64,000 nucleotides of DNA, from contig JAPQLC010000003.1 in assembly GCA_030826945.1 (NCBI GenBank), forward strand, positions 1-64,000, written 5' to 3'. A program made the position numbers and the translations under genes. The notes beneath the pieces were generated by a model. It ran no database searches and was not told the origin of the DNA. It saw nothing but the letters and a program-made list of their open reading frames with translations. Shown piece by piece: positions 3,132 through 56,270 of the stretch. The DNA comes from Candidatus Thiobius zoothamnicola. GTDB taxonomy: Bacteria; Pseudomonadota; Gammaproteobacteria; Chromatiales; Chromatiaceae. Position 1 is the first letter of the stretch; every line of letters starts with the position of its first letter.

Positions 3132-3659
3132 ATGAAATTAACGTCAATTATGGAAAAATACATATTGCATTGGGGGGAAATGGGTACCCGATGGGGGGTC
3201 AACCGTACAGTCGCGCAAATCCACGCGCTACTTTTCCTTTCGTCAGATCCAATGAACGCTGAAGAGATCACAGAAACACTTGTGGTAGCTCGATCGAACG
3301 TCAGCACCAGCATTAAAGAACTTCAAGCTTGGCGATTAATCAAGATTGTTCGTTTGCTCGGTGATCGCCGAGATTACTTCACGACAATGAAAGATCCTTG
3401 GGAATTGTTCCACACCATCATGGAAGGCCGCAAACAACGAGAGCTTGATCCAACCATAACAATGCTTCGGGAGTGCATGCTTGACAGCCAAGAAGACACT
3501 CAAACGCCTGCGGAAGTAAAAAAGCGCATCAATCATGTATTGGAATTCATGGAAACCTTAGATATTTGGCATAATCAAATCAAAGTGCTTCCCAACCCTA
3601 CTTTACAAAAACTCATTAAGTTAGGAGCCAAAGTGCAAGGATTCTTGAAAGGAAAATAA
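3132..3659 (+). CDS. GbsR/MarR-type transcriptional regulator
   Basis: Protein of 175 residues with a winged helix-turn-helix in the first half: the region QIHALLFLSSDPMNAEEI is followed by a recognition-helix segment LVVARSNVSTSIKEL, and GDRRDYFT forms the wing. This layout, with N-terminal EKYILHWGEMGTRWGVNR, is typical of GbsR-type MarR relatives, which repress membrane or osmolyte genes. The C-terminal half is helical and probably forms the dimer. It lies directly upstream of the SDR-DoxX/DUF2269 pair on the same strand, which makes that pair its likely target. The ligand is unknown. Confidence 0.85.
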   Translation: MKLTSIMEKYILHWGEMGTRWGVNRTVAQIHALLFLSSDPMNAEEITETLVVARSNVSTSIKELQAWRLIKIVRLLGDRRDYFTTMKDPWELFHTIMEGRKQRELDPTITMLRECMLDSQEDTQTPAEVKKRINHVLEFMETLDIWHNQIKVLPNPTLQKLIKLGAKVQGFLKGK

Positions 3660-3674
3660 CGCTTTTTTTTGCTT

Positions 3675-3702
3675 TTTTATTTCTTTCTATACAGAAATAA
3701 AA
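3675..3702 (+). terminator. AT-rich inverted repeat after the GbsR-like gene
   Basis: Perfect 10-base arms TTTTATTTCT and AGAAATAAAA with an 8-base loop, starting 16 bases after the regulator stop. The stem is AU-rich and lacks a following U run, so it would be a weak terminator at best. It may instead limit read-through into the SDR gene. Confidence 0.25.
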
Positions 3703-3786
3703 GAAAGATCTACCAGGAAATATCTCAGATGAATACGCCCTTACCATTTTCCTTTATCAAATAAACAGGTAAAAAAGAGGACCAAC

Positions 3787-5088
3787 ATGCATATTCTCAT
3801 TACTGGGGCAAGCGGTTTCATTGGCGATCATCTGGTGAACGCCTTGTTATGCGCTAACCACAAAATCATTGTTTGCGCACGCCATCCGCAATATATCCGC
3901 CAACGATGGCCTGAAGTCGCCGTCACCAAAGCTGACTTTACCATAGACCATACAGCAGCAGATTGGATGCCACGGTTGAAAGATATTGATCTTGTCATCA
4001 ATACCGTAGGGATCATCCGCGAAAATCGCACTCAGACATTCGATGCACTACATATCTCTGCTCCCATCGCGCTCTTCCAAGCCTGTGAATCAATGGGAAT
4101 CAGACGAGTCATTCAAATTTCTGCATTAGGTGCTAATGAAAAAGCTTTCAGCCGTTACCACAAAAGTAAGTATGCGGCAGATCAATATTTGAGAGGAAGC
4201 GCTCTGGATTGGGCTGTTGTTATGCCTTCTATCGTGTATGGTCCAGGCGCAAAAAGCATGGCTTTATTCAAAGCGTTAGCCGCCTTACCCTTTATTCCTC
4301 TTATCGATACCGGTGACCAATGTATTCAGCCCGTGCATATCAATGACCTGACCAAAGCCATAGTAAAACTGGTGAATTCACCCACACAACTCCGTTCAAC
4401 AATTGAAATAGTTGGGCCTGCGCCAATCACCCTGAAAACCCTTTACGCAACCTTGCGAAATTGGCTGGGCCAGGGTCAAGCCAGATTTCTCTTTATCCCT
4501 AATCAATTGGCCTTACTTGGCGCACGTTGGTCTGAACGATTGGCAAACACACCGATAACAGAAGAATCCGTGCAAATGTTACGCAGCGGGAACACAGGAA
4601 ATGTGGGACCTTTCATCACGCAATTTGGATTCAAACCCCGCAGCATTGAGCAAGCGCTGAAAGAGACGCCAGCCCAACAAGCCGATTACTGGCACGCCAA
4701 GCTTTACTTCCTCGCCTCAGCCTTGCGCTTCATGATCGCTTTCGTCTGGATCTTCACAGGATTCGTTTCAGCCTTCGTCTATCCCATCGAATTAAGTTAC
4801 GCCTTGTTATCCAAAATCGGCATAGAGGGTATCTGGCAACCTCTCATGCTGTATAGCGCAGCAGCAATGGATATGCTGCTTGGCATCGCAACATTATTCG
4901 CATTTCGTCTACGCATGATCGTAGCGCTACAAATCAGCATCATACTGCTATACAGCGTCATCATCACTTTATGGCTTCCAGAACAATGGGTGCATCCATT
5001 TGGCGCAATCAGCAAAAATCTACCGCTTACCATTGCCACTCTCATCATGCTCGTGTTGGAAGGAGAAAAAAGATGGAATATGCATTAA
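3787..5088 (+). CDS. SDR oxidoreductase with C-terminal DoxX-like membrane domain
   Basis: Two-part protein of 433 residues. Residues 1 to about 300 are an extended short-chain dehydrogenase/reductase of the NmrA/complex I-subunit-like type: Rossmann motif GASGFIG at the N-terminus, NTVGIIREN in the middle, and YHKSKYAAD carrying the YxxxK pair. From about 310 to the end there are four hydrophobic segments resembling DoxX-like proteins (FMIAFVWIFTGFVSAF, MLYSAAAMDMLLGIATLFAF and others). A GAGG ribosome site precedes the ATG. The fusion suggests a membrane-tethered reductase of unknown substrate. Its stop overlaps the next gene. Confidence 0.85.
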   Translation: MHILITGASGFIGDHLVNALLCANHKIIVCARHPQYIRQRWPEVAVTKADFTIDHTAADWMPRLKDIDLVINTVGIIRENRTQTFDALHISAPIALFQACESMGIRRVIQISALGANEKAFSRYHKSKYAADQYLRGSALDWAVVMPSIVYGPGAKSMALFKALAALPFIPLIDTGDQCIQPVHINDLTKAIVKLVNSPTQLRSTIEIVGPAPITLKTLYATLRNWLGQGQARFLFIPNQLALLGARWSERLANTPITEESVQMLRSGNTGNVGPFITQFGFKPRSIEQALKETPAQQADYWHAKLYFLASALRFMIAFVWIFTGFVSAFVYPIELSYALLSKIGIEGIWQPLMLYSAAAMDMLLGIATLFAFRLRMIVALQISIILLYSVIITLWLPEQWVHPFGAISKNLPLTIATLIMLVLEGEKRWNMH

Positions 5089-5546
5089 TCAAAGTGATTC
5101 ATATCCTTAGCTCCACGCTCTTATTCGGCACGGGCCTGGGAAGCGCATTCTACAAATGGATGGCTGATCGTAGCGGAGACCTAAACACCATCGCACGCAC
5201 AAATCGTATTGTCGTGATTGCTGATTGGGTATTTACCATGCCAACCATGATTATTCAGCCTGTAACCGGATTTTGGCTGGTCTATATTCTTGATATTCCT
5301 CTGAGTCAGACATGGATAATAGCCACTATCGTGCTGTATACCATTAGCGGAGGATGCTGGATTCCTGTTGTTTGGTTGCAGATACGTATGCGAGATATTG
5401 CAAATCAAGCTTTACACCTGAATGCCGATCTGGATAAACGCTATTATCATTACGCGCGCATATGGTTCTGGCTCGGTATCCCAGCATTTATCTCCATGAT
5501 CATGATTTATTGCCTCATGGTCTTCAAGCCGACAATCAACCTGTAG
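5073..5546 (+). CDS. DUF2269 family integral membrane protein
   Basis: Protein of 157 residues with about four transmembrane segments, beginning MEYALIKVIHILSSTLLFGTG. The conserved histidine in the first helix (VIHILSS) and the GxWLV-like second helix fit DUF2269. The start at 5073 is preceded by AAGGAG and lies inside the end of the SDR-DoxX gene, so the two genes overlap by 16 bases and are likely cotranslated. The constant pairing of DUF2269 with SDR-DoxX fusions suggests a joint membrane function, which is not known. Confidence 0.85.
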   Translation: MEYALIKVIHILSSTLLFGTGLGSAFYKWMADRSGDLNTIARTNRIVVIADWVFTMPTMIIQPVTGFWLVYILDIPLSQTWIIATIVLYTISGGCWIPVVWLQIRMRDIANQALHLNADLDKRYYHYARIWFWLGIPAFISMIMIYCLMVFKPTINL

Positions 5547-5683: not shown

Positions 5684-6421
5684 CTACTGCGAATCCTGAT
5701 CTGAGTTATCTGGTTCTTGCTCCGATGTCCAAAGCGTTAGATTGTCTCGTAACAACTGCATAATCATCGTTGAATCCTTATAAGAGTCTTCTTGTAAATC
5801 ATCCAACTCTTCAATCGCCGCATCAAAGGCTTTTTTCGCAGTACTGCAAGCCTTAGACGGAAGATTCGCGATCTCATAATAATAAATGGACAGATTCAAC
5901 ATGATTCCAAGCCTTATCGGATGAGTATAGGCCAAGTGCTGCGCAGCATTTTCCGCTTGTTTATAGTATCCCAAAGCCTGGGCAGATAGCCGATCACGCT
6001 CATCACCAGTTCCCTCAACCTCGGTCATATAACGGCTATAATCACCAAGCATTTTCTGGAAGAACGGAATCGACTCCTGATCATCCTGACTTAAGCGAGT
6101 TAAGATCTTATTTTCAACAAGATCAAGCACATGACGACAACGCTCTTGCAATTCAAGCTCCATTTTGGAACGGCAGTTTCTCACTAAATCCACATACTCC
6201 GAACTAACTCCTTTTGCCTCAATGGAAAAGATAACCCGCCATGCGGAACGCTTTGCGCCGACAACGTTTTTGTAAGCATTGGAGAATAAATTGCTAAACT
6301 CCGAAGAAATCACCGTATCGGTTGCAAGTACGTACTGATCGGCCACACTCGCCATATCATCGTAGCACTCAGCCTGCTCCCATAGCTTCATCGTTTCGAT
6401 CAGTTGCATTTGTTTATTCAC
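5684..6421 (-). CDS. 14-3-3 protein (phosphoserine/threonine-binding adaptor)
   Basis: With a GTG start at 6421, preceded by AGAGG at good spacing, the product is 245 residues, the length of human 14-3-3 zeta. The whole nine-helix family is recognisable: EQAECYDDM (helix A), NAYKNVVGAKRSAWRV (helix C), GDYSRYMTEV (helix E), LNLSIYYYEI (helix G) and MQLLRDNLTLWTS (helix I), then an acidic tail. Residues that hold the phosphate and peptide in eukaryotes are all present: K51, R58, R130, Y131, N176, L223, N227, W231 (zeta K49, R56, R127, Y128, N173, L220, N224, W228). The family binds phosphorylated client proteins as dimers and is considered eukaryotic. A longer frame to 6535 exists but is not homologous. 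Both flanks are bacterial genes, so this looks like an acquired gene. Confidence 0.95.
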   Translation of the reverse strand: MNKQMQLIETMKLWEQAECYDDMASVADQYVLATDTVISSEFSNLFSNAYKNVVGAKRSAWRVIFSIEAKGVSSEYVDLVRNCRSKMELELQERCRHVLDLVENKILTRLSQDDQESIPFFQKMLGDYSRYMTEVEGTGDERDRLSAQALGYYKQAENAAQHLAYTHPIRLGIMLNLSIYYYEIANLPSKACSTAKKAFDAAIEELDDLQEDSYKDSTMIMQLLRDNLTLWTSEQEPDNSDQDSQ

Positions 6422-6518
6422 AGAAATTACCTCTTTGCTCGCAAAAGCTTTGATTGGCTTGTAGGGCACCTCGAAAAACAGGCCCTCAGTGGCAAAATAA
6501 CAAGAAATCCCGGCAACA

Positions 6519-6671
6519 ATGCAATACCCAGGCAACCGAGGATTTTTTGACCAAGAGAATCATTTAGCGGAATTAGAAAAACTATGTGGCCCATCCGGCT
6601 TTAATCAAGCCGTGACAACCATCCACAGTGGGCTATGCCTGGCTCGGCGACGGTTATCTTACGCTTTTTAA
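6519..6671 (+). pseudogene. Possible IS5/IS1182-type transposase N-terminal remnant
   Basis: A 50-codon frame starting at ATG 6519 contains RGFFDQENHLAELEKL, which resembles the N-terminus of IS5-group transposases (a GFFDE..RL.KL.KLGDPL pattern). It then runs into unrelated sequence and stops. No DDE residues are present. It lies just upstream of the 14-3-3 gene, on the opposite strand, and may mark an old insertion or recombination point. Recognition is from a short pattern only. Confidence 0.35.
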
Positions 6672-7429
6672 TAGATCAACCAACGATTAACCATTTCCAA
6701 TAAAGGTTCATCCTTACCCTCAAAAAAGTGATCCGCACCGGCAATCTCCTGCTGTACATAAGCAGCGTTACGAATGCTGGCGCTTTTGCGGATACCCACG
6801 CTCTCTGACACACTCGGCAAATCTGCACTGCCGTAGAGATCAAGCACCGGAATCCTGATTGAACGTAACGAGGTCGCTGCGCTAACCGCAATCGCCTTAG
6901 GGTCGTCACTATGCTGCGCCGGCATGCCAATTGCGATGAACGCTTTCGCTCGCGAAGGCTGATGCGCCAGATAATAAGCCGCCATGGTGGCTCCCTGGCT
7001 ATGCGCTGCAATCACAATCTCAGTGACGCCTTGATCCAGAAGATATTGCTCCGCCGCTTGCAAGCGCGCCGGAATTTGTGGATATAAAGGCGTATATTCG
7101 CGGTATTCGGCATCATTTTGCAGAACCGGCATTTGCACCGATAAAGTATGCCAACCTTTCTCCGTCATCCCCACTCGCAATGGGCGAACCACCTGATCCC
7201 AATTCGGATGAACGCCAGTGCCATGTACCACAATCATACCTTGCGTGGATTCATCTTCCGCTTCGGTATAGATGGACAAGAACTCATGATCACCAGTTGT
7301 TAACCAGACAGCTTCGCCATCCATAATAGAATCAACGATTTCATCCGCCCAGCGTTGCTCTTTGGCGAAATCAGACGCTTGCAGCAAGCTGCTGAACAAC
7401 AACAGAATATAAACGAATCGACTTTTCAT
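6668..7429 (-). CDS. Exported alpha/beta-hydrolase, DUF3530 type
   Basis: Protein of 253 residues. The first 18 or so residues form a signal peptide (MKSRFVYILLLFSSLLQAS), so it is probably periplasmic. An alpha/beta-hydrolase fold follows: the oxyanion region VVHGTG, the nucleophile elbow AAHSQGA with the catalytic serine, an acidic residue in LYGSADLP and the catalytic histidine in GADHFF. DUF3530 members are annotated as hydrolases without a defined substrate. It ends the long minus-strand run downstream of metZ and is probably expressed from its own promoter. Confidence 0.85.
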   Translation of the reverse strand: MKSRFVYILLLFSSLLQASDFAKEQRWADEIVDSIMDGEAVWLTTGDHEFLSIYTEAEDESTQGMIVVHGTGVHPNWDQVVRPLRVGMTEKGWHTLSVQMPVLQNDAEYREYTPLYPQIPARLQAAEQYLLDQGVTEIVIAAHSQGATMAAYYLAHQPSRAKAFIAIGMPAQHSDDPKAIAVSAATSLRSIRIPVLDLYGSADLPSVSESVGIRKSASIRNAAYVQQEIAGADHFFEGKDEPLLEMVNRWLIY

Positions 7430-38597: not shown

Positions 38598-40442
38598 ATG
38601 GAATCCGCAAAAGGACTGCTCGCGGAGCTGAACAGACTGGACGTTCATCTCTCAATTGACCATGCCAAACTTCGGTGTAATGCCCCCAAAGGCGTCATCA
38701 CGCCTGAATTACGCACCGACATCCAACGTTTTAAAACCGAGCTGATAAAGCTGCTGGAGAACCAACAGCGAGAATCTGCTGACGTTGCGACAAGAAACGC
38801 CATAACTCGAATACCTCGTGAGGGTGAATTGCCCTTATCTTATTCACAAGAACGCATTTGGCTGTTGAGCAAGCTTGATCCAGCACACCATGTAACGGGC
38901 AACGTCCATTTCGCCTTCCACATCATTGGCCCATTAGACATTCCTATACTAGAGCAGGCACTCAACGCCATTATCCAGCGCCATGAAGTCTTTCGCATTC
39001 GTTGCGCAACCCGCGACGAACGGCCAACGCAATCCATCGTTTCATCAATCAAGCTTAAATTAACCGTTGATCATTTAACAACGTTAGCCGCCGATGAAAA
39101 AACCGCGGTCATTCACCAAATTCGATTACATCATGCACTAGCACCGTTCGACCTCGCCACCGCCCCTTTACTGCGCGCCAGGGTGTTGAAAATTGCTGAT
39201 CAAGCCTATTATTTCCTGCTAACAACACATCTATATATTTTTGATGGCTGGTCAACCGCCATTTTGCTGCGCGAACTATCCCATTTATATCGCGCTTTAC
39301 AGGTGGGAGAGAAACCGTCATTACCGCCTCTCAATGCGCAATATGCTGATTTCGCCCACTGGCACCGCCAATGGTTTGAAGGCACGGAAGCTGATCATCA
39401 ACACCGCTGGTGGATAGAACGGCTCCGCCATACCCAATTAGTGGTAAATCAGCCGTTAAAGCATGCGACGCGACCCAGCATTCCCGGCGACAGTGACGTT
39501 ATTGAATTCATTCTGCCGGATTTCCTCGCCGACGCCGTGCGCAATTTGTCACAACAATCCGGCGTCACGCTATTCATTGGCCTGTTGGCGGCCTTCCAGG
39601 CACTGCTATACACTTACACCGGACAAACAAAACTCGCGACTGGCTCCATTGTGTCTAACCGTCGGTCAACGGAAACGGAAAATATGATTGGCTCTTTCGC
39701 CAATAATATTTTGATTCCCTCTGATTTCTCATCCGGCGTCACTTTTCAAAACCTGCTTGAGCAAGTTGGAAAAACCTCGCGTGAAGCTTATGCCAACCAG
39801 GATTTGCCGTTTGAACGTCTGTTGGGTGAACTCAATCCCAACCTGACCACTAACCCATTATTCCGCACAATGTTCGTGCTGCATCAGCACCAGTCTCAAT
39901 CCGGTTCAGCCTCAAAGCTGAAGCTAACCGGCTTGCAAGTGGAAAAGCTCTCAGACATCAAGACATTATCTAAATATGACCTAGAACTGGTGATGGTCGA
40001 GCGTGATGACAAACTATCCGGCATGTTCATTCACCAGACTCGCGTATTCACTCAAGACACCATCCAAGCGCTGAAAAATCATTTTCTGCAAATACTGAAA
40101 CAGGTCACTGATAACCCAAAGCTTTTGCTAACCGACTTACCCACCCTCAACCCAACTCTACGCAGACCCTCAAACCGTCCAGTCGCTAACCAAGCCGCCT
40201 ATGAAGCGCCCCGCAACGCAAATGAAACCGCCATTGCTGAAATCTGGCGAAATATTTTCCATCTTGAGCGCATTGGGATTCATGACCGTTTTCGAGATTT
40301 GGGTGGGCATTCTTTATTAGCCATCCAATTGATCAACAAACTCGAACAAAGACTCAATCTTAAAATGCGTTTGACCGATTTAGATCACTTCCCAACAATC
40401 GCCGAATTGGCTGCATCACCGGACTGGCGGCGAGAAGGGTGA
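38598..40442 (+). CDS. NRPS: docking domain - condensation - peptidyl carrier
   Basis: Protein of 614 residues without an adenylation domain. Residues 1 to about 55 look like a TubC-type N-terminal docking domain (GLLAELNRLDVHLSIDH, then APKGVITPELR). Residues about 75-510 are a condensation domain beginning LPLSYSQERIWLL. The usual HHxxxDG core reads HLYIFDG near residue 210, so the second, catalytic histidine is leucine. A carrier domain follows with the phosphopantetheine serine in DLGGHSLLAI (about residue 572). The docking domain implies that it receives a chain from another protein. It lies 60 bases before the large NRPS on the same strand. Confidence 0.92.
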   Translation: MESAKGLLAELNRLDVHLSIDHAKLRCNAPKGVITPELRTDIQRFKTELIKLLENQQRESADVATRNAITRIPREGELPLSYSQERIWLLSKLDPAHHVTGNVHFAFHIIGPLDIPILEQALNAIIQRHEVFRIRCATRDERPTQSIVSSIKLKLTVDHLTTLAADEKTAVIHQIRLHHALAPFDLATAPLLRARVLKIADQAYYFLLTTHLYIFDGWSTAILLRELSHLYRALQVGEKPSLPPLNAQYADFAHWHRQWFEGTEADHQHRWWIERLRHTQLVVNQPLKHATRPSIPGDSDVIEFILPDFLADAVRNLSQQSGVTLFIGLLAAFQALLYTYTGQTKLATGSIVSNRRSTETENMIGSFANNILIPSDFSSGVTFQNLLEQVGKTSREAYANQDLPFERLLGELNPNLTTNPLFRTMFVLHQHQSQSGSASKLKLTGLQVEKLSDIKTLSKYDLELVMVERDDKLSGMFIHQTRVFTQDTIQALKNHFLQILKQVTDNPKLLLTDLPTLNPTLRRPSNRPVANQAAYEAPRNANETAIAEIWRNIFHLERIGIHDRFRDLGGHSLLAIQLINKLEQRLNLKMRLTDLDHFPTIAELAASPDWRREG

Positions 40443-40502
40443 TTTAACCTTCACTTTTCTGACAACCCCTATCACTCTGACTCTGGAAAAGGATTTCCAC
40501 GC

Positions 40503-43500
40503 ATGAACAAAACAACGAAAAACCAATCCACCACCAATCCCTTAGCCATCAGTCAAGGTGGAACCCTTGAATTCAACCCTGCGGTTCCTGCCACGCTGCC
40601 CAAAATGCTGCTGGATTCCGTCAGCAAAGCCACTGATAAACGCATCATCTATCGCATGGAGGATGGCAGTGACCGGGTCAATACTTACGCTGACCTGCTA
40701 CAGGAAGCTCGCTGCCTGCTAACAGGCTTACAGCAGCAAGGTTTGCAACCCAAAGACAGCAGCATCCTGCTGTTGGACCAAAACCACGACATTATCCCGG
40801 TGTTCTGGGCCTGTATGCTGGGCGGTTTCCGTCCACTGATCATGGAAGTCCCTGAGCACTTCGGCCAAGGTAATCGCGCTTTTGAACATGTCTGTGCATT
40901 GGGCAAACTGGTAGACGTGCGCCTGATCATTACCAGCGACAAACGCTATGCTGAAGCCACTCAACTCTTGGAAGATCTGTCAGAACAACAGGTCGCCATG
41001 AGTCCTGTCGAGCAACTGCGGGACCATCCACCTACCCTCACCCATCACGCCAGCCAACCCGATGACATTGCCTGTTTCTGGCTGACTTCCGGCAGTACCG
41101 GCACACCCAAATGCGTGAGCATGAAGCACCGTAATATCCTGACCCGCGCGGCAGGCACCAACCGCTTCAATGGGCATGACGCCAACGATGTTTATCTGAA
41201 CTGGCTACCCTTCGACCACAACGGCAGCCTGGCTGAGCACATCCGTTGCATCAAAAGCGTGTGCAATATGGTTTACCTGCACAAAGAAGACATACTCAGC
41301 GATCCGCTTAATATGCTGCGCACCATTGATCGATACGGTATTACCCATACCTGGGGGCCGAATTTTATCTACTCGCTGATGCGGGATGCACTCAAGGAAA
41401 GCAACAACGAGGAATACGGCTGGGATTTATCCAGCATTAAATTCATGATCTCCGGCGGCGAACCGGTATCCGCCCGCACCATGCATGATTTTCTGGATCG
41501 GGCTGGTCAATACGGCTACCCACGCACGGGTTCCCGTCCCAGCTTCGGCATGGCAGAAGCCGGTGGTGGCGGCACCACCTACGGCGAACCGACTGACGCA
41601 GAGCCGATCAAATTTTTCTGGGTGGAAAACAACGCTTTCAACGGCGAAGATGTACGCCAAACTACCCCGGAAACACCCGACGCCACCCCCATCGCCAGTT
41701 TGGGACGCCCGATTCCTGGCGTCACCATCCGCATCATTGATCAACAAAATCAGATTGTGCCAGAAAATGTCGTCGGACATGTTCATCTCAAAGGCCCGTT
41801 GATGCTGGAAGGCTATTACAACAACCCGGAAGCCAATGCCGAGTGTTTTTTGGAAGATGGCTGGGTCGATACCGGCGACTTGGGTTTTCTCAGCCGTGGC
41901 GCGCTGGCACTGACTGGCCGCGCCAAAGCCATGATCATCATCCACGGGCGCAACTTTTACAGCCACGAAATTGAAGGCGTTGCTGAAGAAATCGAAGGTG
42001 TGGAACGTTCCTTCACTGCCGCTTGTGCCGTGGGCGATACTGATAATGATACCGATAAACTGGCGATTTTCTTCCATTCGCTGACAGACGATAAAACGCA
42101 ATTACAACGGATCATTCGCCAGATTCGTCAGGCCATCGTCAGCCGCATTCATATCAATCCAGAAACCATTATCCCGGTCAAACGCGAAGACATCCCCAAA
42201 ACACCCATCGGTAAAATCCAGCGCAACCTGCTGGCCAAACGTTTCAATCAGGGTTGGTTTGCTGAACACCTGCAAGCCATCAGCCACCTGCTGGAGCAGG
42301 AAAACACCGCACCACGTAATGAACTGGAGAATCAACTGGCCGATGCCTGGGAAGAAATTCTGGGCATTCGCCCCAGCATCCACGACAATTTCTTCGACCT
42401 CGGCGGTAACTCCATCAAAGCCGTCATGGTAATGAACAAATTCCAGGAGAAAATCGGCGCGATCTTCCATCCGGTTTCCCTGTTCGATGCCCCCACCATT
42501 GCAGGACTGGCGCAATATTTCGAGGATAACTACCCTGCGCTGTTCAAGGCGGCGGAAGAAGCGACTGCCGAGCAAGAGGCGGAGCCACTATCCGCAACCC
42601 AAATCGAACACATGCAGCGCTATCTGGCAGATTGCCTGAGTGACCCGAATGTTCATCCCGATCCGGCAGGGGGTAAAAATCCACGCGCTGTATTCATCCT
42701 CTCACCAGCCCGTTCCGGCTCGACCCTGCTACGTGTCATTCTGGCGGGCAACCCGCAACTGTTCAGCCCACCAGAACTGTACCTGTTGGGCTTCAATCGT
42801 TTCCGTGAATGGCGACAGTTTTATTCCGGTCGCCTTGCGTATATCCGTGAAGGCTTGACCCGTGCCATTATGGAACTGAAAAACTGCTCGCTGGAACAAG
42901 CCGAGCAAAGCATGGCGGAGATGGAAACGCAGGACATCACCATCAAGCAAGTATTCGCCCAACTACAAGCTTGGTCTGGCGAGCGCATGCTGGTGGACAA
43001 GTCGCCACCTTACGCTTTCAACCTCAATATCCTCAAACGCCTGGAAGCTGAGTTTGAAGACCCACTGTATGTACACCTGATGCGCCACCCGGCAGGCATG
43101 ATTGCCTCCTTTGAAGAAGCACGGGTTGACCTGGCCGTGGACGTACACGGTGATGAAGATGGCACAGTTGAATTGAGCGGACGCCAGAAAGGTGAAGCCT
43201 GGTGGTTGATCAGTCATCAAAATATCCTGGCGTTCCTAAAAGACATTCCGGCTGAACGCCAGCACCTGATCAAGTTCGAGGATATTGTCACCACACCAGA
43301 ACCCACTTTGCGGGGCTTGGCGGACTTCCTCAGCGTGGGCTTCCACGCCGACATGCTGGAGCCACAAAAAGACAGCAAACAACGCATGGTTGATGGTACG
43401 CACGAGCTATCCCGTCGTGCTGGCGATCCCAAATTCCACACGCATAAGGGTTTTTCATCCAGTTCTGCTGACCGCTGGAAAGCGGTGTACCACAAGGATT

Positions 43501-46500
43501 TCTTGTGTGAGCAAACCTGGCAGATCGCCAACAACTACGGCTACCGTTTTGACCGTGGCGTGTCACTGAGCGACTTCAAGGTGCAAGCTGACCCTGCCAA
43601 TCGTGGCAAGCCGTTTCCACTGACCGATATCCAGCAGGCCTACTGGGCAGGCCGGGTCGGCAGCTTTGAACTCGGTGGTTACTCAGTGCATTCCTACACG
43701 GAAATCGACAGCACTGATCTGGATATGCGCCGCCTGCAACAAGCCTGGCAAAAAATGGTGGATCGTCACGAAATGCTGCGCACCATTATCCTGCCGGACG
43801 GACAGCAGCAAATTCTGGTGGACATACCAAAGTACAACATCCGTGTCATGGATCTGAGTAGCCTTGACGAAAATGGTGTACAAACTGAGTTGATGGCAAC
43901 CCGTGAACGCATGTCGCATCAGGTATTCGCCTTCGACCAGTGGCCGCTATACGAAATCTTCGTTTCGCGGATGGATGAACACCGTTACCGGGTACACCTC
44001 AGCTTCGATGCCATCCTGTTTGACGCCCGCAGCCGTTATATCCTCTACGCCGAATTCCAGCAGTTTTATCAGCAACCAGCGCTCAGCTTGCCACCATTCG
44101 AACTGTCTTTCCGCGATTACGTGCTGGCTGAAGAACGCATCAAGGATTCACCGCTGTATGCACAGTCGCGTGATTACTGGATGCAGCAATTGGCAACCCT
44201 ACCGGGAGCGCCGGAACTGCCTTTAGCCATCAACCCAGCCACGCTGACAGAACCCAAGTTCGTACAGAAAAACCATTTCGTCGCCAAAGCAGACTGGAGC
44301 AAGCTGAAGGCGCGCGCTGCACAGGAGCAAATCACCCCATCCTGCCTGCTGATGACCGCTTTCTCCGATGTGCTGCGCACCTGGAGCAAACAGGACAGCT
44401 TCACGATCAACCTGACCGCTTATAACCGCCAACCACTGCACCCGGAAGTCAACAACATCATTGGGGATTTCACATCGCTGATTCTGCTGGGTATCGACAG
44501 TCCGGCGCAGCACAGTTTCATCGAACGCGCCCACACCCTGCAAAAACGCCTGTGGGACAATCTCAACCACAACCATTTCAGCGGCATTGAAGTCTTGCGC
44601 GAACTCGGCAAGCGCAATAACCATCAATCCGGCGCACAAATGCCGGTGGTATTCACCAGCGTGCTGGGCGATGAAATCAGCGACAGCACTAACAACTCTG
44701 GCCAGCAAAGCACCGACTGGCTGGGTGAAATCGCCTTCAACGTGGCGCAGACCCCGCAAATCTGGTTCGACCACATTGCCTTTGAAGAAGGTGGCGGTCT
44801 GCTATGCCGCTGGAATGTGATCGACACATTATTCCCGGCTGGCATGATGGACGCCATGTTCGATGCCTATCTGGACTGTCTGCAAAAACTGCTAAATGAT
44901 GAAAATACTTGGCATGAACGCTGGCCGGACACCACCAAACGGTTGGTTACTCCTGCGCAACTGGAACAGCGCCACGACGCCAATGCCACGGATGCTCCCG
45001 TTTCTGATGAATTGATGCATACCCTGTTCTACAAGCAAGTTGCGCTTCAACCAGAAGCCACTGCGGTGATTGCCGCAGACCGGACACTGAACTATCAGGA
45101 ACTGTACGAACTTTCCAACCAGATCGGCCATCGCCTGCAAGCACTGGGCGTACAACCCAATCAGTTGGTTGCGGTAGTAATGGAAAAAGGCTGGCAGCAG
45201 GTTGCCGCCGTGATGGGTATTCTGGCTTCCGGTGCTGCTTATTTACCGGTCGATCCATCCCTGCCGGAAGAGCGTTTCCACTATTTACTGGAATTCGGCC
45301 AGGTGGATGTCGTACTAACCGAAAGTGCATTAGGTAACCTGATGAATTGGCCACAAGACACCCAAATCGTATGTGTGGATGACGGTTCACTGGCGAATGA
45401 AAGCATCGCCCAGCCGGAAGTCCGCCAGCAGCCGGAAGACCTCGCCTATGTCATCTTCACTTCCGGCTCCACCGGTCTACCCAAAGGCGTGATGATCGAC
45501 CACCGGGGTGCAGTCAATACCTTGCTCGACATCAATTCCCGCTTCAAGGTTAGCCCGCAAGATCGCGCTATCGGCCTGTCAGCTCTGAACTTCGACCTGT
45601 CCGTGTATGACATCTTCGGCTTGCTGGCGGCAGGCGGCGCAATCGTCATGCCACAAACCACCGATGTGCGTAATCCACCCCAGTGGGTGAAGCTGGTCAA
45701 CGAGTATCAGGTCACTATTTGGAACACAGTGCCCGCCTTTGTCGGCCTACTGACGGATTACGTGGAAAGCCATCCTGGTACAACGACCGACTCCCTGCGC
45801 CTGATGATGATGAGCGGCGACTGGATTCCAGTGACCCTGCCGAGTCGTATCCAGCAATATTTCAAACAACCCGAGGTCATCAGTCTGGGCGGCGCGACAG
45901 AAGCCTCCATCTGGTCGATCCTCTATCCAATCCATGCCGTCGAGCCGGAATGGACCAGCATCCCTTACGGCAAACCGATGGTGAACCAACAATTCCATGT
46001 ACTGAACGTCGCCATGGAAAACTGCCCGGTATGGGTACCCGGCCAGCTGTATATCGGCGGTATCGGGCTGGCCAAAGGCTACTGGCGCGATACGGAAAAA
46101 ACCAATAAGGCTTTCATCACCCACCCCAAAACGGGTGAACGCCTGTATTGCACCGGTGATTTGGGTCGTTACCTGCCGGACGGCAATATCGAATTCCTGG
46201 GCCGTGAGGACTTCCAAGTCAAAATTCAGGGTTTCCGGGTGGAAATCGGTGAAATCGAAGCCGCGTTGATGCAGCATTCTGCCATCAAAACCGCCGTGGT
46301 TGACGCCAAAGGCGAAGCCCATGCCGAAAAACAACTGGTAGCCTATTGTGTTGCAGAAACCGGTGAAGCACTGAAGGCTGGCGACTTACAGAATTTCCTG
46401 CGGCAAAAAATTCCTACGTATATGGTGCCTGCTGTCTACATCTCCCTGAAAGATTTACCATTGAGTGCCAACGGCAAAGTTGACCGCAAGGCGCTGCCAG

Positions 46501-47639
46501 ATCCTTCAACTGTCGCCACTCTGGAACCAACAGCAGTCACTGACAGCAAACCAGAACAGACAACAACCCCCTCCAGTACTGCCAGCCAGATTCTCGACAT
46601 TGTTGAAAATGTACTGGAAAGAACCAATATTGCCCCGGATGACAACATTTTCAATTTTGGCGCGACCTCCATCCATATGATGCGTATCGTCAATCAGTTG
46701 GAAATGGGACTCGGCTTCCGTCCACAAATTGATGCGTTTTACACGGATCCGACGGTACAGGGATTAATCAGCGCCTACGAAGCAATTCACGGCAAGCTGG
46801 ATGATGGCAATCAAACCGAGGCGGCCAATAAACCTGCCATGCAGGTACATGCCCTCTCCGGCAATGAACTGCTGGAGCAATTCCACTTCATTACCGACCC
46901 GGAAGAACGCACGGCGTTCAAGGAAGCGCAACACGGTATCCGCCAACTGTCTGCGCCCTCCATACCACTGGTCGGCTCGGAAGCACTCGATAAACTGTAC
47001 GCCAAACTACGCAGTTACCGTCATTTTTCGGCCGAACCGATTTCCCTGGCAAACTTTAGCGATCTATTCAGCTGCCTGCGCCAACAAACCTTACAAAAAC
47101 AACCCAAGTATCTGTATGGCTCGGCAGGCGGCTTGTACCCGCTACAAACCTACATCTACATTAAACCGGGGCGGGTAAAATCGCTGGCTGGCGGACTCTA
47201 TTACTATCATCCACAAAAGCATCACCTGATGCTGCTCTCTAAAGAGGCATTGGATGAATGCATTTATAACCCTCATATTAACCGTCCCATTTACCAGCAA
47301 GCCGCCTTCGCCATATTCTTAATCGCGCAATTGGCGGCGATTGGGCCAATGTATAAAGAACTGGCGCTGCATTTCTCTACGCTGGAAGCCGGTAATATCT
47401 CACAGCTATTACGCCACCATGCGCCCAATGCCAATCTGGGTGTTTGTGAAATCGGCGAGCTGGATTTCAACCGGGTAAGACATCTGTTCTCACTGAGTGA
47501 TTCGCATGTGCTGATGCATTCGTTGGTGGGCGGAACGCCTGATGAAGACACCGGAAGAGAGGATACGGCTTACTACCAAGGCGTGTTCGCCGATCAACCA
47601 GAGGTCGATAAAGTAGAGCGAGAAGAGGAGGAGTTCTAA
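40503..47639 (+). CDS. NRPS: acyl ligase - PCP - sulfotransferase - Cy - A(Cys) - PCP - oxidase
   Basis: Protein of 2378 residues. In order: an acyl/aryl-AMP ligase (about 20-600; LTSGSTGTPK near 195; GRNFYSHEIE); a carrier (serine in DLGGNSIKAV, about 636); a sulfotransferase (PARSGSTLL near 735, RHPAGMIAS near 860); a heterocyclization domain (PFPLTDIQQAYWAGR near 1036, DAILFDARS near 1167, the DxxxxD motif); an adenylation domain (FTSGSTGLPKG near 1650, NFDLSVYDIFG near 1695); a carrier (NFGATSIHM, about 2055); and a C-terminal nitroreductase-like oxidase (YLYGSAGGLYPLQTY). The specificity residues I extract for A are D-L-Y-N-M-S-L-I-W-K, one change from the cysteine code. Together these predict thiazoline formation and oxidation to thiazole. 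No thioesterase or reductase ends the protein. Confidence 0.93.
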   Translation: MNKTTKNQSTTNPLAISQGGTLEFNPAVPATLPKMLLDSVSKATDKRIIYRMEDGSDRVNTYADLLQEARCLLTGLQQQGLQPKDSSILLLDQNHDIIPVFWACMLGGFRPLIMEVPEHFGQGNRAFEHVCALGKLVDVRLIITSDKRYAEATQLLEDLSEQQVAMSPVEQLRDHPPTLTHHASQPDDIACFWLTSGSTGTPKCVSMKHRNILTRAAGTNRFNGHDANDVYLNWLPFDHNGSLAEHIRCIKSVCNMVYLHKEDILSDPLNMLRTIDRYGITHTWGPNFIYSLMRDALKESNNEEYGWDLSSIKFMISGGEPVSARTMHDFLDRAGQYGYPRTGSRPSFGMAEAGGGGTTYGEPTDAEPIKFFWVENNAFNGEDVRQTTPETPDATPIASLGRPIPGVTIRIIDQQNQIVPENVVGHVHLKGPLMLEGYYNNPEANAECFLEDGWVDTGDLGFLSRGALALTGRAKAMIIIHGRNFYSHEIEGVAEEIEGVERSFTAACAVGDTDNDTDKLAIFFHSLTDDKTQLQRIIRQIRQAIVSRIHINPETIIPVKREDIPKTPIGKIQRNLLAKRFNQGWFAEHLQAISHLLEQENTAPRNELENQLADAWEEILGIRPSIHDNFFDLGGNSIKAVMVMNKFQEKIGAIFHPVSLFDAPTIAGLAQYFEDNYPALFKAAEEATAEQEAEPLSATQIEHMQRYLADCLSDPNVHPDPAGGKNPRAVFILSPARSGSTLLRVILAGNPQLFSPPELYLLGFNRFREWRQFYSGRLAYIREGLTRAIMELKNCSLEQAEQSMAEMETQDITIKQVFAQLQAWSGERMLVDKSPPYAFNLNILKRLEAEFEDPLYVHLMRHPAGMIASFEEARVDLAVDVHGDEDGTVELSGRQKGEAWWLISHQNILAFLKDIPAERQHLIKFEDIVTTPEPTLRGLADFLSVGFHADMLEPQKDSKQRMVDGTHELSRRAGDPKFHTHKGFSSSSADRWKAVYHKDFLCEQTWQIANNYGYRFDRGVSLSDFKVQADPANRGKPFPLTDIQQAYWAGRVGSFELGGYSVHSYTEIDSTDLDMRRLQQAWQKMVDRHEMLRTIILPDGQQQILVDIPKYNIRVMDLSSLDENGVQTELMATRERMSHQVFAFDQWPLYEIFVSRMDEHRYRVHLSFDAILFDARSRYILYAEFQQFYQQPALSLPPFELSFRDYVLAEERIKDSPLYAQSRDYWMQQLATLPGAPELPLAINPATLTEPKFVQKNHFVAKADWSKLKARAAQEQITPSCLLMTAFSDVLRTWSKQDSFTINLTAYNRQPLHPEVNNIIGDFTSLILLGIDSPAQHSFIERAHTLQKRLWDNLNHNHFSGIEVLRELGKRNNHQSGAQMPVVFTSVLGDEISDSTNNSGQQSTDWLGEIAFNVAQTPQIWFDHIAFEEGGGLLCRWNVIDTLFPAGMMDAMFDAYLDCLQKLLNDENTWHERWPDTTKRLVTPAQLEQRHDANATDAPVSDELMHTLFYKQVALQPEATAVIAADRTLNYQELYELSNQIGHRLQALGVQPNQLVAVVMEKGWQQVAAVMGILASGAAYLPVDPSLPEERFHYLLEFGQVDVVLTESALGNLMNWPQDTQIVCVDDGSLANESIAQPEVRQQPEDLAYVIFTSGSTGLPKGVMIDHRGAVNTLLDINSRFKVSPQDRAIGLSALNFDLSVYDIFGLLAAGGAIVMPQTTDVRNPPQWVKLVNEYQVTIWNTVPAFVGLLTDYVESHPGTTTDSLRLMMMSGDWIPVTLPSRIQQYFKQPEVISLGGATEASIWSILYPIHAVEPEWTSIPYGKPMVNQQFHVLNVAMENCPVWVPGQLYIGGIGLAKGYWRDTEKTNKAFITHPKTGERLYCTGDLGRYLPDGNIEFLGREDFQVKIQGFRVEIGEIEAALMQHSAIKTAVVDAKGEAHAEKQLVAYCVAETGEALKAGDLQNFLRQKIPTYMVPAVYISLKDLPLSANGKVDRKALPDPSTVATLEPTAVTDSKPEQTTTPSSTASQILDIVENVLERTNIAPDDNIFNFGATSIHMMRIVNQLEMGLGFRPQIDAFYTDPTVQGLISAYEAIHGKLDDGNQTEAANKPAMQVHALSGNELLEQFHFITDPEERTAFKEAQHGIRQLSAPSIPLVGSEALDKLYAKLRSYRHFSAEPISLANFSDLFSCLRQQTLQKQPKYLYGSAGGLYPLQTYIYIKPGRVKSLAGGLYYYHPQKHHLMLLSKEALDECIYNPHINRPIYQQAAFAIFLIAQLAAIGPMYKELALHFSTLEAGNISQLLRHHAPNANLGVCEIGELDFNRVRHLFSLSDSHVLMHSLVGGTPDEDTGREDTAYYQGVFADQPEVDKVEREEEEF

Positions 47640-53221: not shown

Positions 53222-54544
53222 TTATATTTCACTGACCATAGCTTGTAATGAATGGACACTGCAATTACTAGGGTTGTAAACCCATTCATTATCAAATACA
53301 GGCCTCATTCTTTGCTCTAAGAAAATAGAACCAATTGATAATGAGAAAAATCTGTTCCCATTCTCTTTAGCTACAGTTATTTTACTTTTTAATGATTCAG
53401 GCAGTGATGCCATTATAAAGTCAGAAATCATCAGACAATCTGACTTTTTATACTCTTCTTTTTTCATTAAGTCTAGCGCATAATCTAATGCTGGAGAAGC
53501 GTCCGTTCCTCCACAAAAAGAACGTTGTAAGAAATTAACAACCTTAGGAATACCTAGGCCTCCTGACAGATCCAAAGTCTCAACCCCAGTTGAGAAGTTT
53601 ATCAAAAAACAATTCCTTTTTTGCTCATTAGCTCTGGTGGCCATAAACAAAGTAACTGCTTTTGCTATTGTTTCAGGTGAACCCTGCATAGAGCCACTGG
53701 TATCGACACAGATAATAACCGGACCATTTTCCACTTCATCTTCTACTTCAATTAATATTTCTTCATCAACAAAGGTTTCTTTTAGTTGATAACCTTCCAT
53801 ATCAAAACAAACCAACCTATCTTCAGTGTATTTCATATCAAATAAAATAGATATATCATCATCAGCCAGCAAGGCTAACTCTTGAGGCAAAGCATGCTCA
53901 ATATCGCTCCCTAAATGGATACCAACAATCTCCTCTTTTGAATTTACATCAGGTATAAACTCTTGAACATTTATCGTGTTTTTAACTAGTTCCTGACGCT
54001 TGGTTTTTCCTGCTTGTTTCATTCTCTCCATCATATCACAAAGGTTTTTAACACCATCATCTCTAGATATATAGGTTACCCACTTTTTTAATTGTTCAAT
54101 ATCAGATAGTGATAAATTATCTTGTGAAAAATCTAAGAAAAAGCCAGTACCCAAAGATAAATCAGACATCACATCGTCCAATTGCTGTAGCAAACTTAGC
54201 CAGTCAGATACTTTTTTTAAAAATTCTCGCCTGTATTCATCAATAGCCTTTAGTTCCCATTCTGAATAAGCCTTATTTAATGATTTTAACCATTGCTCTT
54301 GTAGCAATGTTCGGCAAATCAAGCTACTTTCTTCATTTGAGTGCTTGTTTCTTTTTTTATATTTTGTAGAATTTGAATCTTGGAATTTATCCATCAATAA
54401 ATTTAATTTACATATATTCTTTAGTTTATCAATCTCAGAAACCCAAAATTTCTCATCTACTGAATATTTTGCTTTTCTAGATAGAGACTTAAAGTCTGAA
54501 TAATCACCTTCAATGTCAGAAATTGAAGTATTCTTTTGCTTCAA
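53222..54544 (-). CDS. VWA-domain protein, ViaA-like partner of the MoxR ATPase
   Basis: Protein of 440 residues. The N-terminal two thirds is helical and Lys/Glu-rich. The C-terminal von Willebrand A domain starts near residue 270 and has a complete metal-dependent adhesion site: VDTSGSMQGS (DxSxS), the threonine in GGTDASPAL and the aspartate in MISDF. In E. coli ViaA works with the MoxR ATPase RavA on respiratory and metal-related targets. It starts with TTG after AGGAG, directly behind a small gene and the RavA-like gene. The operon is markedly AT-rich compared with both flanks, a sign of transfer. Confidence 0.88.
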   Translation of the reverse strand: MKQKNTSISDIEGDYSDFKSLSRKAKYSVDEKFWVSEIDKLKNICKLNLLMDKFQDSNSTKYKKRNKHSNEESSLICRTLLQEQWLKSLNKAYSEWELKAIDEYRREFLKKVSDWLSLLQQLDDVMSDLSLGTGFFLDFSQDNLSLSDIEQLKKWVTYISRDDGVKNLCDMMERMKQAGKTKRQELVKNTINVQEFIPDVNSKEEIVGIHLGSDIEHALPQELALLADDDISILFDMKYTEDRLVCFDMEGYQLKETFVDEEILIEVEDEVENGPVIICVDTSGSMQGSPETIAKAVTLFMATRANEQKRNCFLINFSTGVETLDLSGGLGIPKVVNFLQRSFCGGTDASPALDYALDLMKKEEYKKSDCLMISDFIMASLPESLKSKITVAKENGNRFFSLSIGSIFLEQRMRPVFDNEWVYNPSNCSVHSLQAMVSEI

Positions 54545-54560
54545 ACTCCTACTTGCAACT

Positions 54561-54745
54561 TTAAACTTTAAACTTCATCTCTTCTTCGTGAAAAGGGTTT
54601 TCTTTATTAAGCCGCCGTTGAGTCCTCTTATTCCATTGCCTTATTTCAGACAAAAGCCTTTCTTGTATCTTTTTTTTGCTGCTACTGGGTAGCATTTGAC
54701 TAATTCATCTATTTCTATATTAGGCAAGAAGTCTTCATGAGTCAT
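54561..54745 (-). pseudogene. Small middle gene of the RavA/VWA operon, A-tract frameshift
   Basis: ATG 54745 opens MTHEDFLPNIEIDELVKCYP. Read as given, the frame ends after 34 codons at 54641. At an A8 run on the coding strand (54670-54677) a one-base gain would continue into KKIQERLLSEIRQWNKRTQR and end KFKV at TAA 54561, giving about 61 residues of coiled-coil-like, charged sequence. It begins four bases after the RavA-like stop and ends 17 bases before the VWA start. I do not recognise a family. It is too short for routine gene calling. Confidence 0.55.
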
Positions 54746-54748
54746 AAA

Positions 54749-56270
54749 TCAGCCTATCAAGCTCTTTAACCGATCACAGTCTTTATGGCGTAGTTTCATC
54801 TCTCTGAGTTGATTGGAAATGCTTTCCAATGCAATGTCGCGTGTTTGCTCCATCACAAAAGGGGTATCCAGCTCATTTTTAAACTCAATCAGTTTATTGT
54901 CAATATCCTTGATAATATTCTGAATTCTATCGGCCAATTGAATAACTTCATTTCTTAATGAGTCAGTCAAGCGTACATTTACATCTGTTTTTTTATCACC
55001 TTTATGAAATAGTATGTTTGGTGAAAATTCACCAATACCTTTCCATTGACCATAATAGTTATCTTTATTAGATCTAATATGACAAACACCTTGTTTATCA
55101 AAGTTGCACTGAATCCATTCGAGTTGATTACCTTGCTCATCAATCGGATGAAAATCTTCTTCGCTTTTAAGGTTGGTGTATGGAATATAAAACTCCACCG
55201 CACGAGCGTTATCTCCATATTTTCTTACACATTTAAAATAGGATTTATTATCAGGCAAAGTAACAGTTTCATATACATCTCCTGAATGGTAAAGTTCTTT
55301 TTCAATCTCCTTTTCCAAATTTTCTTTTTCTTCATCAAGATGATATAAGTTAAAGCCTGTTTCAAAGCCACAATTTCTAACAGCATCTTCGACAACTCTA
55401 ATAACCTCCTTACGATTATCATTTGTTGTCCATAAGCAATGCCTTAATAATAGTGCATCTACAAGGTTAGTTTCCTTCCTGCCAGAGAAAAAGGCAGATG
55501 CTTTTAGAAGTATAGCTGCTCTTTGCCAACGGCGATCAGAAACATAAACATCTAGGTCTTCTCCTTTTTCTGAAAAAGTCAGTCGAATGTCATGTATTAC
55601 ATTTAGGGTTTCTGATGAAAGCTTGATTTCTTCAATTTCAAGTCGCCATATTTCCCACTCATCATGGGTTATCAATATTTCTCTAGGTAAGTTAATCTTC
55701 TCTTTTGTTGGGCTTGATTGCAATAAAGACTCAAAGTTATGTTTCTCTCCCATTGGTGGCACGTATAATCGCACTAGAAACCGGTCATATAAGGCTTCTA
55801 ATCCTTGATTATCTGGCGGTATCTCATTAGATGCTGAAATCAAAAACTTTAGCGGCACACTCTCAATATTCTTCCCATTTCTAAATATTTTCTCATTAAT
55901 GATGGTTAAGAGCGTATTAAGAATGGCTGGGCTAGATTTCCAGATTTCATCCAAAAAGGCGAAATCACTTTTTGGTAAAAAACCCTCTGTTTTGCGAATA
56001 TAATTATCCTTTTTTAATTCTGATATAGATACAGGGCCAAATACCTCTTCTGGCGTACTGAATCGTTGCATTAGATATTCGAAATATGTTTTTTTTTTCA
56101 AAAGCATGTGATAAACGCCGAGAGATTAAACTCTTAGCTGTACCGGGAGAGCCGAGTAAAAAGATATTTTGATCTGCTAAAGCTGCCAACAGAGAAACAG
56201 CTACAACCTCTTCTCTTTCGTGAATACCTTTATTCAGGTGTTCTAAAATTTCACTTATTCTTTTCTTCAT
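54749..56270 (-). pseudogene. RavA-like MoxR AAA+ ATPase, interrupted at an A10 tract
   Basis: Two frames together make one ATPase of about 507 residues. The first (from ATG 56270) carries KGIHEREEVVAVSLLAAL and Walker A GSPGTAKS. The second carries Walker B FAFLDEIWKS, sensor 1 ISASNE and the arginine finger LEALYDRF, then a C-terminal region unlike E. coli RavA except in general layout. The switch occurs exactly at a run of ten A (56089-56098 as T on the plus strand). Nine A would join RRLSHAFEKK to TYFEYLMQRFS. Slippage, phase variation, decay or an assembly error are all possible. It is the first gene of the operon with the small gene and the VWA protein. Confidence 0.85.

Follow-up and report, generated by a model that had tools for sequence, protein, structure and literature searches.

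A 14-3-3 gene and its chromosomal surroundings

The window, i.e., the whole stretch of 64,000 nucleotides analyzed here, belongs to the genome of Candidatus Thiobius zoothamnicola, a sulfur oxidizer that carries RuBisCO and colonizes the outside of the giant ciliate Zoothamnium niveum. The lineage is matched by the named relatives of its PurF protein, which belong to Sedimenticolaceae, Thiosocius, Thiolapillus and Chromatiaceae. Excerpts of the genome paper describe it as a vertically transmitted ectosymbiont (PMC10952691). A gene coding for a 14-3-3 protein lies 5.7 kb from one end of contig C19 (268,565 bp) and is the only 14-3-3 copy in the source genome (2,381,364 bases, 46 contigs); an assembly of 2,381,364 bp in 46 contigs with an N50 of 98,217 is reported for strain BelizeG43 in the same excerpts (PMC10952691). 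The features of the locus are given in Table 1.

Table 1. Features at the 14-3-3 locus (positions refer to the window).
Feature	Position	Strand	Remarks
14-3-3 protein gene, 245 aa	5684..6421	minus	GTG start, TAG stop
Likely ribosome-binding site AAAGAGG	6430..6436	minus	8 nt before GTG; judged by eye
DUF3530 alpha/beta-hydrolase-like protein, upstream neighbor	6668..7429	minus	Pfam PF12048; codon z +0.3
DUF2269 membrane protein, convergent neighbor	5073..5546	plus	PF10027, 1.2e-60 for 4971-5546; codon z -4.5
NAD-epimerase/DoxX fusion	3787..5088	plus	PF01370 + PF13781; codon z -10.4
MarR-type regulator	3132..3659	plus	PF12802; codon z -7.1

Read from 6421 to 5684, the gene is a single open frame of 245 codons plus stop; TAA or TAG occurs in frame only as the stop codon, and there is no intron. 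Residues 11-232 of the product matched positions 2-223 of the 223-position PF00244 profile with 248.3 bits (E = 8.7e-74; curated cut-off 33.2 bits), which is far beyond chance. An alternative in-frame TTG start at 6535 is mechanically possible and would give 283 aa; the GTG start, however, coincides with the one given for a nearly identical database protein (P0001). According to the preliminary description of the locus, a bacterial chromosome here carries a complete 14-3-3 gene that starts with GTG, has a good ribosome site and is closely flanked by bacterial genes; its coordinates were correct, and all of this was borne out by the intact, intronless frame, the full-length domain, the AAAGAGG motif upstream of the GTG and the flanking genes. 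Promoter and terminator scans stayed at chance level, and Rfam and tRNA scans of the 64-kb window gave no matches.

The gap to the convergent DUF2269 gene is 137 bases, and 246 bases separate the 14-3-3 gene from the DUF3530 gene on the same strand; the DUF2269 frame was listed from 4971, and its start at 5073 was picked by eye. Codon usage of the 14-3-3 gene is moderately atypical (z -4.0), which alone is weak evidence because FabF, one housekeeping gene, reaches -3.6; MetZ has native usage (z +0.4). The MarR, epimerase-DoxX and DUF2269 genes directly adjoining it (3132-5546) are all atypical as well, and these values, set against DUF3530 and MetZ, place the 14-3-3 gene at the margin of a block that looks imported, its codon usage being foreign.

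Foreign codon usage was also seen elsewhere in the window. Two large genes, assigned by eye to the nonribosomal-peptide type and coding for 614 and 2378 aa, lie on the plus strand at 38598-47639, the larger with a codon z of -15.1, unlike housekeeping genes. A low-GC island (0.33-0.35) on the minus strand at 53222-56107 encodes MoxR-type AAA and vWA proteins (bpMoxR, VWA_2) with z about -10.

Conservation of the fold and the peptide-binding groove

A 14-3-3 fold is predicted for the product. The structure prediction matched this fold with nine helices, the number expected from the preliminary description, and had low confidence at residues 240-245. In a 52-row alignment including the window protein, all eight residues previously named as holding the phosphate and the client peptide were invariant. 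The phosphate pocket (K51, R58, R130, Y131) is complete, its counterparts in the zeta protein presumably being K49, R56, R127 and Y128, and so is the clamp and hydrophobic wall for the peptide main chain (N176, L223, N227, W231), which we take to correspond to N173, L220, N224 and W228 of zeta. At 28 groove columns, chosen by hand and not computed, the window protein agreed with the consensus of the 50 other rows at 25, compared to 109 of 217 columns elsewhere (Fisher p = 7e-5). With the comparison limited to columns showing at least 90% conservation among the other rows, agreement was 25/28 in the groove and 62/83 in the rest, which is not significant (p = 0.12). From this conservation of residues and predicted fold, the protein may have kept its function, as the preliminary description supposed, and is predicted to bind phosphopeptides.

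14-3-3 proteins form homo- or heterodimers by way of helices 1-4. At the dimer face, two of nine hand-chosen columns of helices 1 and 3 are altered (E6Q and R19C); of the three among them with at least 90% conservation, two are kept. The conserved Y83 is a cysteine in the window protein, and conserved positions are also changed by A14W, K125L and V48N. Given E6Q, R19C and Y83C, dimerization is not assured.

Distribution and origin of the gene

In a profile search the PF00244 cut-off was exceeded by one of 74 relatives, one of 210 genomes of the order and one of 369 genomes of the class, each time the source genome itself (the three sets overlap; 168 of the 210 order genomes have a completeness of 90% or more and a contamination of 5% or less). 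DUF3530 homologues were present in 26 of 57 family genomes, the source genome included. None of 11 other query genes lay next to the DUF3530 homologue in the 19 loci examined from the family (L008-L026, about 3.7 kb each), and DUF2269 had no family locus; no clean pre-insertion site was therefore found. Two genomes with scores below the cut-off (G065, 19.5 bits; G076, 18.5 bits) were not taken as carrying a 14-3-3 gene; Caulobacter vibrioides, one of 14 control genomes, gives an equally weak signal.

A pattern scan of a collection of named genomes, described as covering 84,980 species, matched 379 stretches, one of which was confirmed (L003); the scan used two short motifs, may omit the window's own genome and may miss divergent copies. 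L003 is a contig of a Verrucomicrobiaceae MAG in which the 14-3-3 sequence (1772-2548) is spread over two separate frames with a gap, as if split by an intron, with ankyrin- and HMG-like frames (identified by eye) around it, and for these reasons it was read as a eukaryotic contaminant, not as a second bacterial 14-3-3. In a single-sequence scan none of 37 stretches was confirmed as 14-3-3, and plasmid and phage searches gave no 14-3-3 match. The viral collection yielded one confirmed stretch out of 65 (L004): the C-terminal part of a 14-3-3 protein (1-339, about 85 matched residues) at the very edge of a 5.3-kb contig with phage-like frames (by eye) beside it, which may be a chimera or real cargo. 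Among the titles and abstract openings of the matches listed in our literature searches there was no report of a bacterial 14-3-3, and the main text of the genome paper uses "14-3-3" 0 times (PMC10952691).

Two trees were built. The first (54 rows: the window protein, P0001 and 52 of 119 other listed proteins; no outgroup) left the window protein and P0001 alone at the midpoint root. The second comprised 52 rows, i.e., the window pair, 10 domains, 11 other named and 26 unnamed proteins and three PDB sequences; the rows were hand-picked, largely from near the window protein in the search, so that sampling is biased, and they include no row identified as coming from ciliates, Giardia or Trypanosoma. 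Here the window pair stood on a long branch (2.29 changes per column) and joined cnidarian and unnamed sequences in a group of 19 rows (97/98; bootstrap not settled). However, grouping the pair with all 12 outgroup rows, a set that includes one mollusc and was named after the tree had been seen, was not rejected (AU p = 0.413), nor was holding it with two dinoflagellates, the only named alveolates in the tree (likelihood worse by 23.9, AU p = 0.0755). The comparison with other 14-3-3 sequences put forward in the preliminary description therefore gave a placement but no named donor.

14-3-3 proteins are regarded as a hallmark of eukaryotic signaling. That an ancient prokaryotic 14-3-3 gene has survived by vertical descent in one species is close to refuted: the long branch would be compatible with it and nothing speaks positively for it, but above the cut-off the gene was found neither in the 209 remaining genomes searched for the order nor in the 368 remaining ones searched for the class (overlapping sets, some genomes incomplete), and the protein is about 50% identical to animal 14-3-3 proteins. 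Transfer from a eukaryote to the bacterium, as the preliminary description had supposed, is by far the likeliest direction. No true homologue above the cut-off was found in the other bacterial genomes searched.

A gene of the host or another eukaryote might also have been misjoined to a bacterial contig during assembly. The MAGs derive from ciliate colonies, collected in Belize and Guadeloupe according to excerpts of the genome paper (PMC10952691), eukaryotic contigs do find their way into bacterial MAGs (L003 seems to be such a case), and the gene lies near a contig end with slightly atypical codons. Such a chimera is nevertheless highly improbable given the bacterial neighbors on both sides, the intronless frame without in-frame UAR codons, the bacterial translation start and a contamination estimate of 0.02 for the source genome, the same excerpts giving 0.1% (PMC10952691). 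In addition, P0001 is untruncated, 98% identical (5 of 245 residues different) and encoded on a 78,133-bp contig, which must belong to another assembly because the source genome has only one 14-3-3 copy. P0001 represents a cluster of four member sequences; as four Thiobius MAGs have been published, the cluster members are presumably these four. PurF shows 6 differences over 507 positions, the start residue included, from the representative of its cluster, and the divergence of the two proteins did not differ significantly (p = 0.35), although the two representatives may stem from different strains.

The nearest suspected donor is Zoothamnium niveum itself, given how intimately the partners live together and that the symbiosis is passed on vertically (PMC10952691), and the trees, with no known ciliate sequence among their rows, would be compatible with it. 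The host is nonetheless disfavored and rather unlikely as the source. Peritrichs translate UAR as glutamate according to an article available in part (PMC10553269), a code that we infer for Zoothamnium from its group, yet all 21 glutamate codons of the gene are GAA (7) or GAG (14), and UAR is found in frame only as the stop. If one in five host glutamate codons were UAR, a share that is assumed, 21 clean codons would have a 0.9% chance in an unchanged gene. The likelihood loss with the dinoflagellates points in the same direction, though that placement was not rejected. It is unusual for a host's genetic code to speak against the donor that would be suspected first.

Putative role and comparison with known systems

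The gene probably came from a standard-code eukaryote, and its product, with its predicted 14-3-3 fold, would bind phosphoserine or phosphothreonine peptides, most likely in the bacterial cytoplasm. The protein would form the usual cup-shaped dimer, each groove of which would clamp a phosphorylated Ser/Thr segment through K51, R58, R130 and Y131, with N176, L223, N227 and W231 holding the peptide; the marked putative client could thereby be masked, bridged or stabilized. A Hanks-type kinase was sought in the genome, and one is present (the single Pkinase match), fused to PP2C and encoded beside a formate/nitrite transporter. This fusion may both make and remove the phosphate marks in the cytoplasm. 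To our knowledge, it is not known as a maker of RSxpSxP-type sites. A cytoplasmic phospho-adaptor is favored because nothing local marks the protein for export: no secretion signal or signal peptide was seen by eye, and none of the five neighbors scanned was VgrG, PAAR or Hcp.

The main rival is a host-directed adaptor, possible but clearly the less probable of the two, in which the symbiont would deliver the protein to sequester phosphorylated host proteins, the likely route being a T6SS, or lysis when the ciliate eats its symbionts. A T6SS cluster is present on contig C33 (TssB, TssC, TssF and TssG, with a T6SS FHA protein adjoining TssG) and keeps such a role open. The kept groove and the presence of just one Hanks kinase inside the bacterium would also fit, and in excerpts of the genome paper T6SS genes are reported for Thiobius and none are named for the free-living relative ODIII6 (PMC10952691). 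Against delivery stand the missing export marks described above and the lack of FHIPEP (T3SS/flagella) and VirB4 matches in the genome. A second TssB-like protein, which has an N-terminal membrane-like stretch (by eye), was noted at the end of C19 (L031, 14100-17895, minus strand); next to it is a protein of 1058 residues that has no Pfam match and contains HEIGH (HExxH) near its C-terminus.

Between the cytoplasmic adaptor, which we prefer, and delivery to the host, slightly better than even prospects remain that this is the first functional bacterial 14-3-3 protein, translated from bacterial signals and either coupled to the bacterium's own kinase/PP2C fusion or aimed through the T6SS at the host phosphoproteome. 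If so, a 14-3-3 hub works outside the eukaryotic network, or a surface symbiont uses one on its host. The gene is intact and occurs in more than one assembly, and its product has conserved groove residues despite a very long branch. According to excerpts of the genome paper, the ciliate and its symbiont have been grown together in culture (PMC10952691), which makes location, clients and binding of the protein directly testable.

Among known systems, the eukaryotic-like proteins of Legionella and further host-associated bacteria resemble this case in that such a bacterium gained a eukaryotic family; "14-3-3 domain" occurred in none of the papers among the matches listed for that literature, and, as a difference, VirB4 had no match in the Thiobius genome. 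Like the bacterial FHA-domain phosphothreonine readers, the window protein would read Ser/Thr phosphorylation. The FHA domain is a beta-sandwich that reads phosphothreonine, and its fold is unrelated to 14-3-3. With eukaryotic 14-3-3 proteins of the zeta/gamma type (PF00244) the window protein shares the full-length domain, the length, the nine predicted helices, the pocket and peptide-holding residues and 45-53% identity to the 50 alignment rows other than P0001. It differs from them in R19C, Y83C, A14W, K125L and V48N, in its long branch, and in being encoded by one gene per genome, on a bacterial chromosome and with a bacterial translation start.
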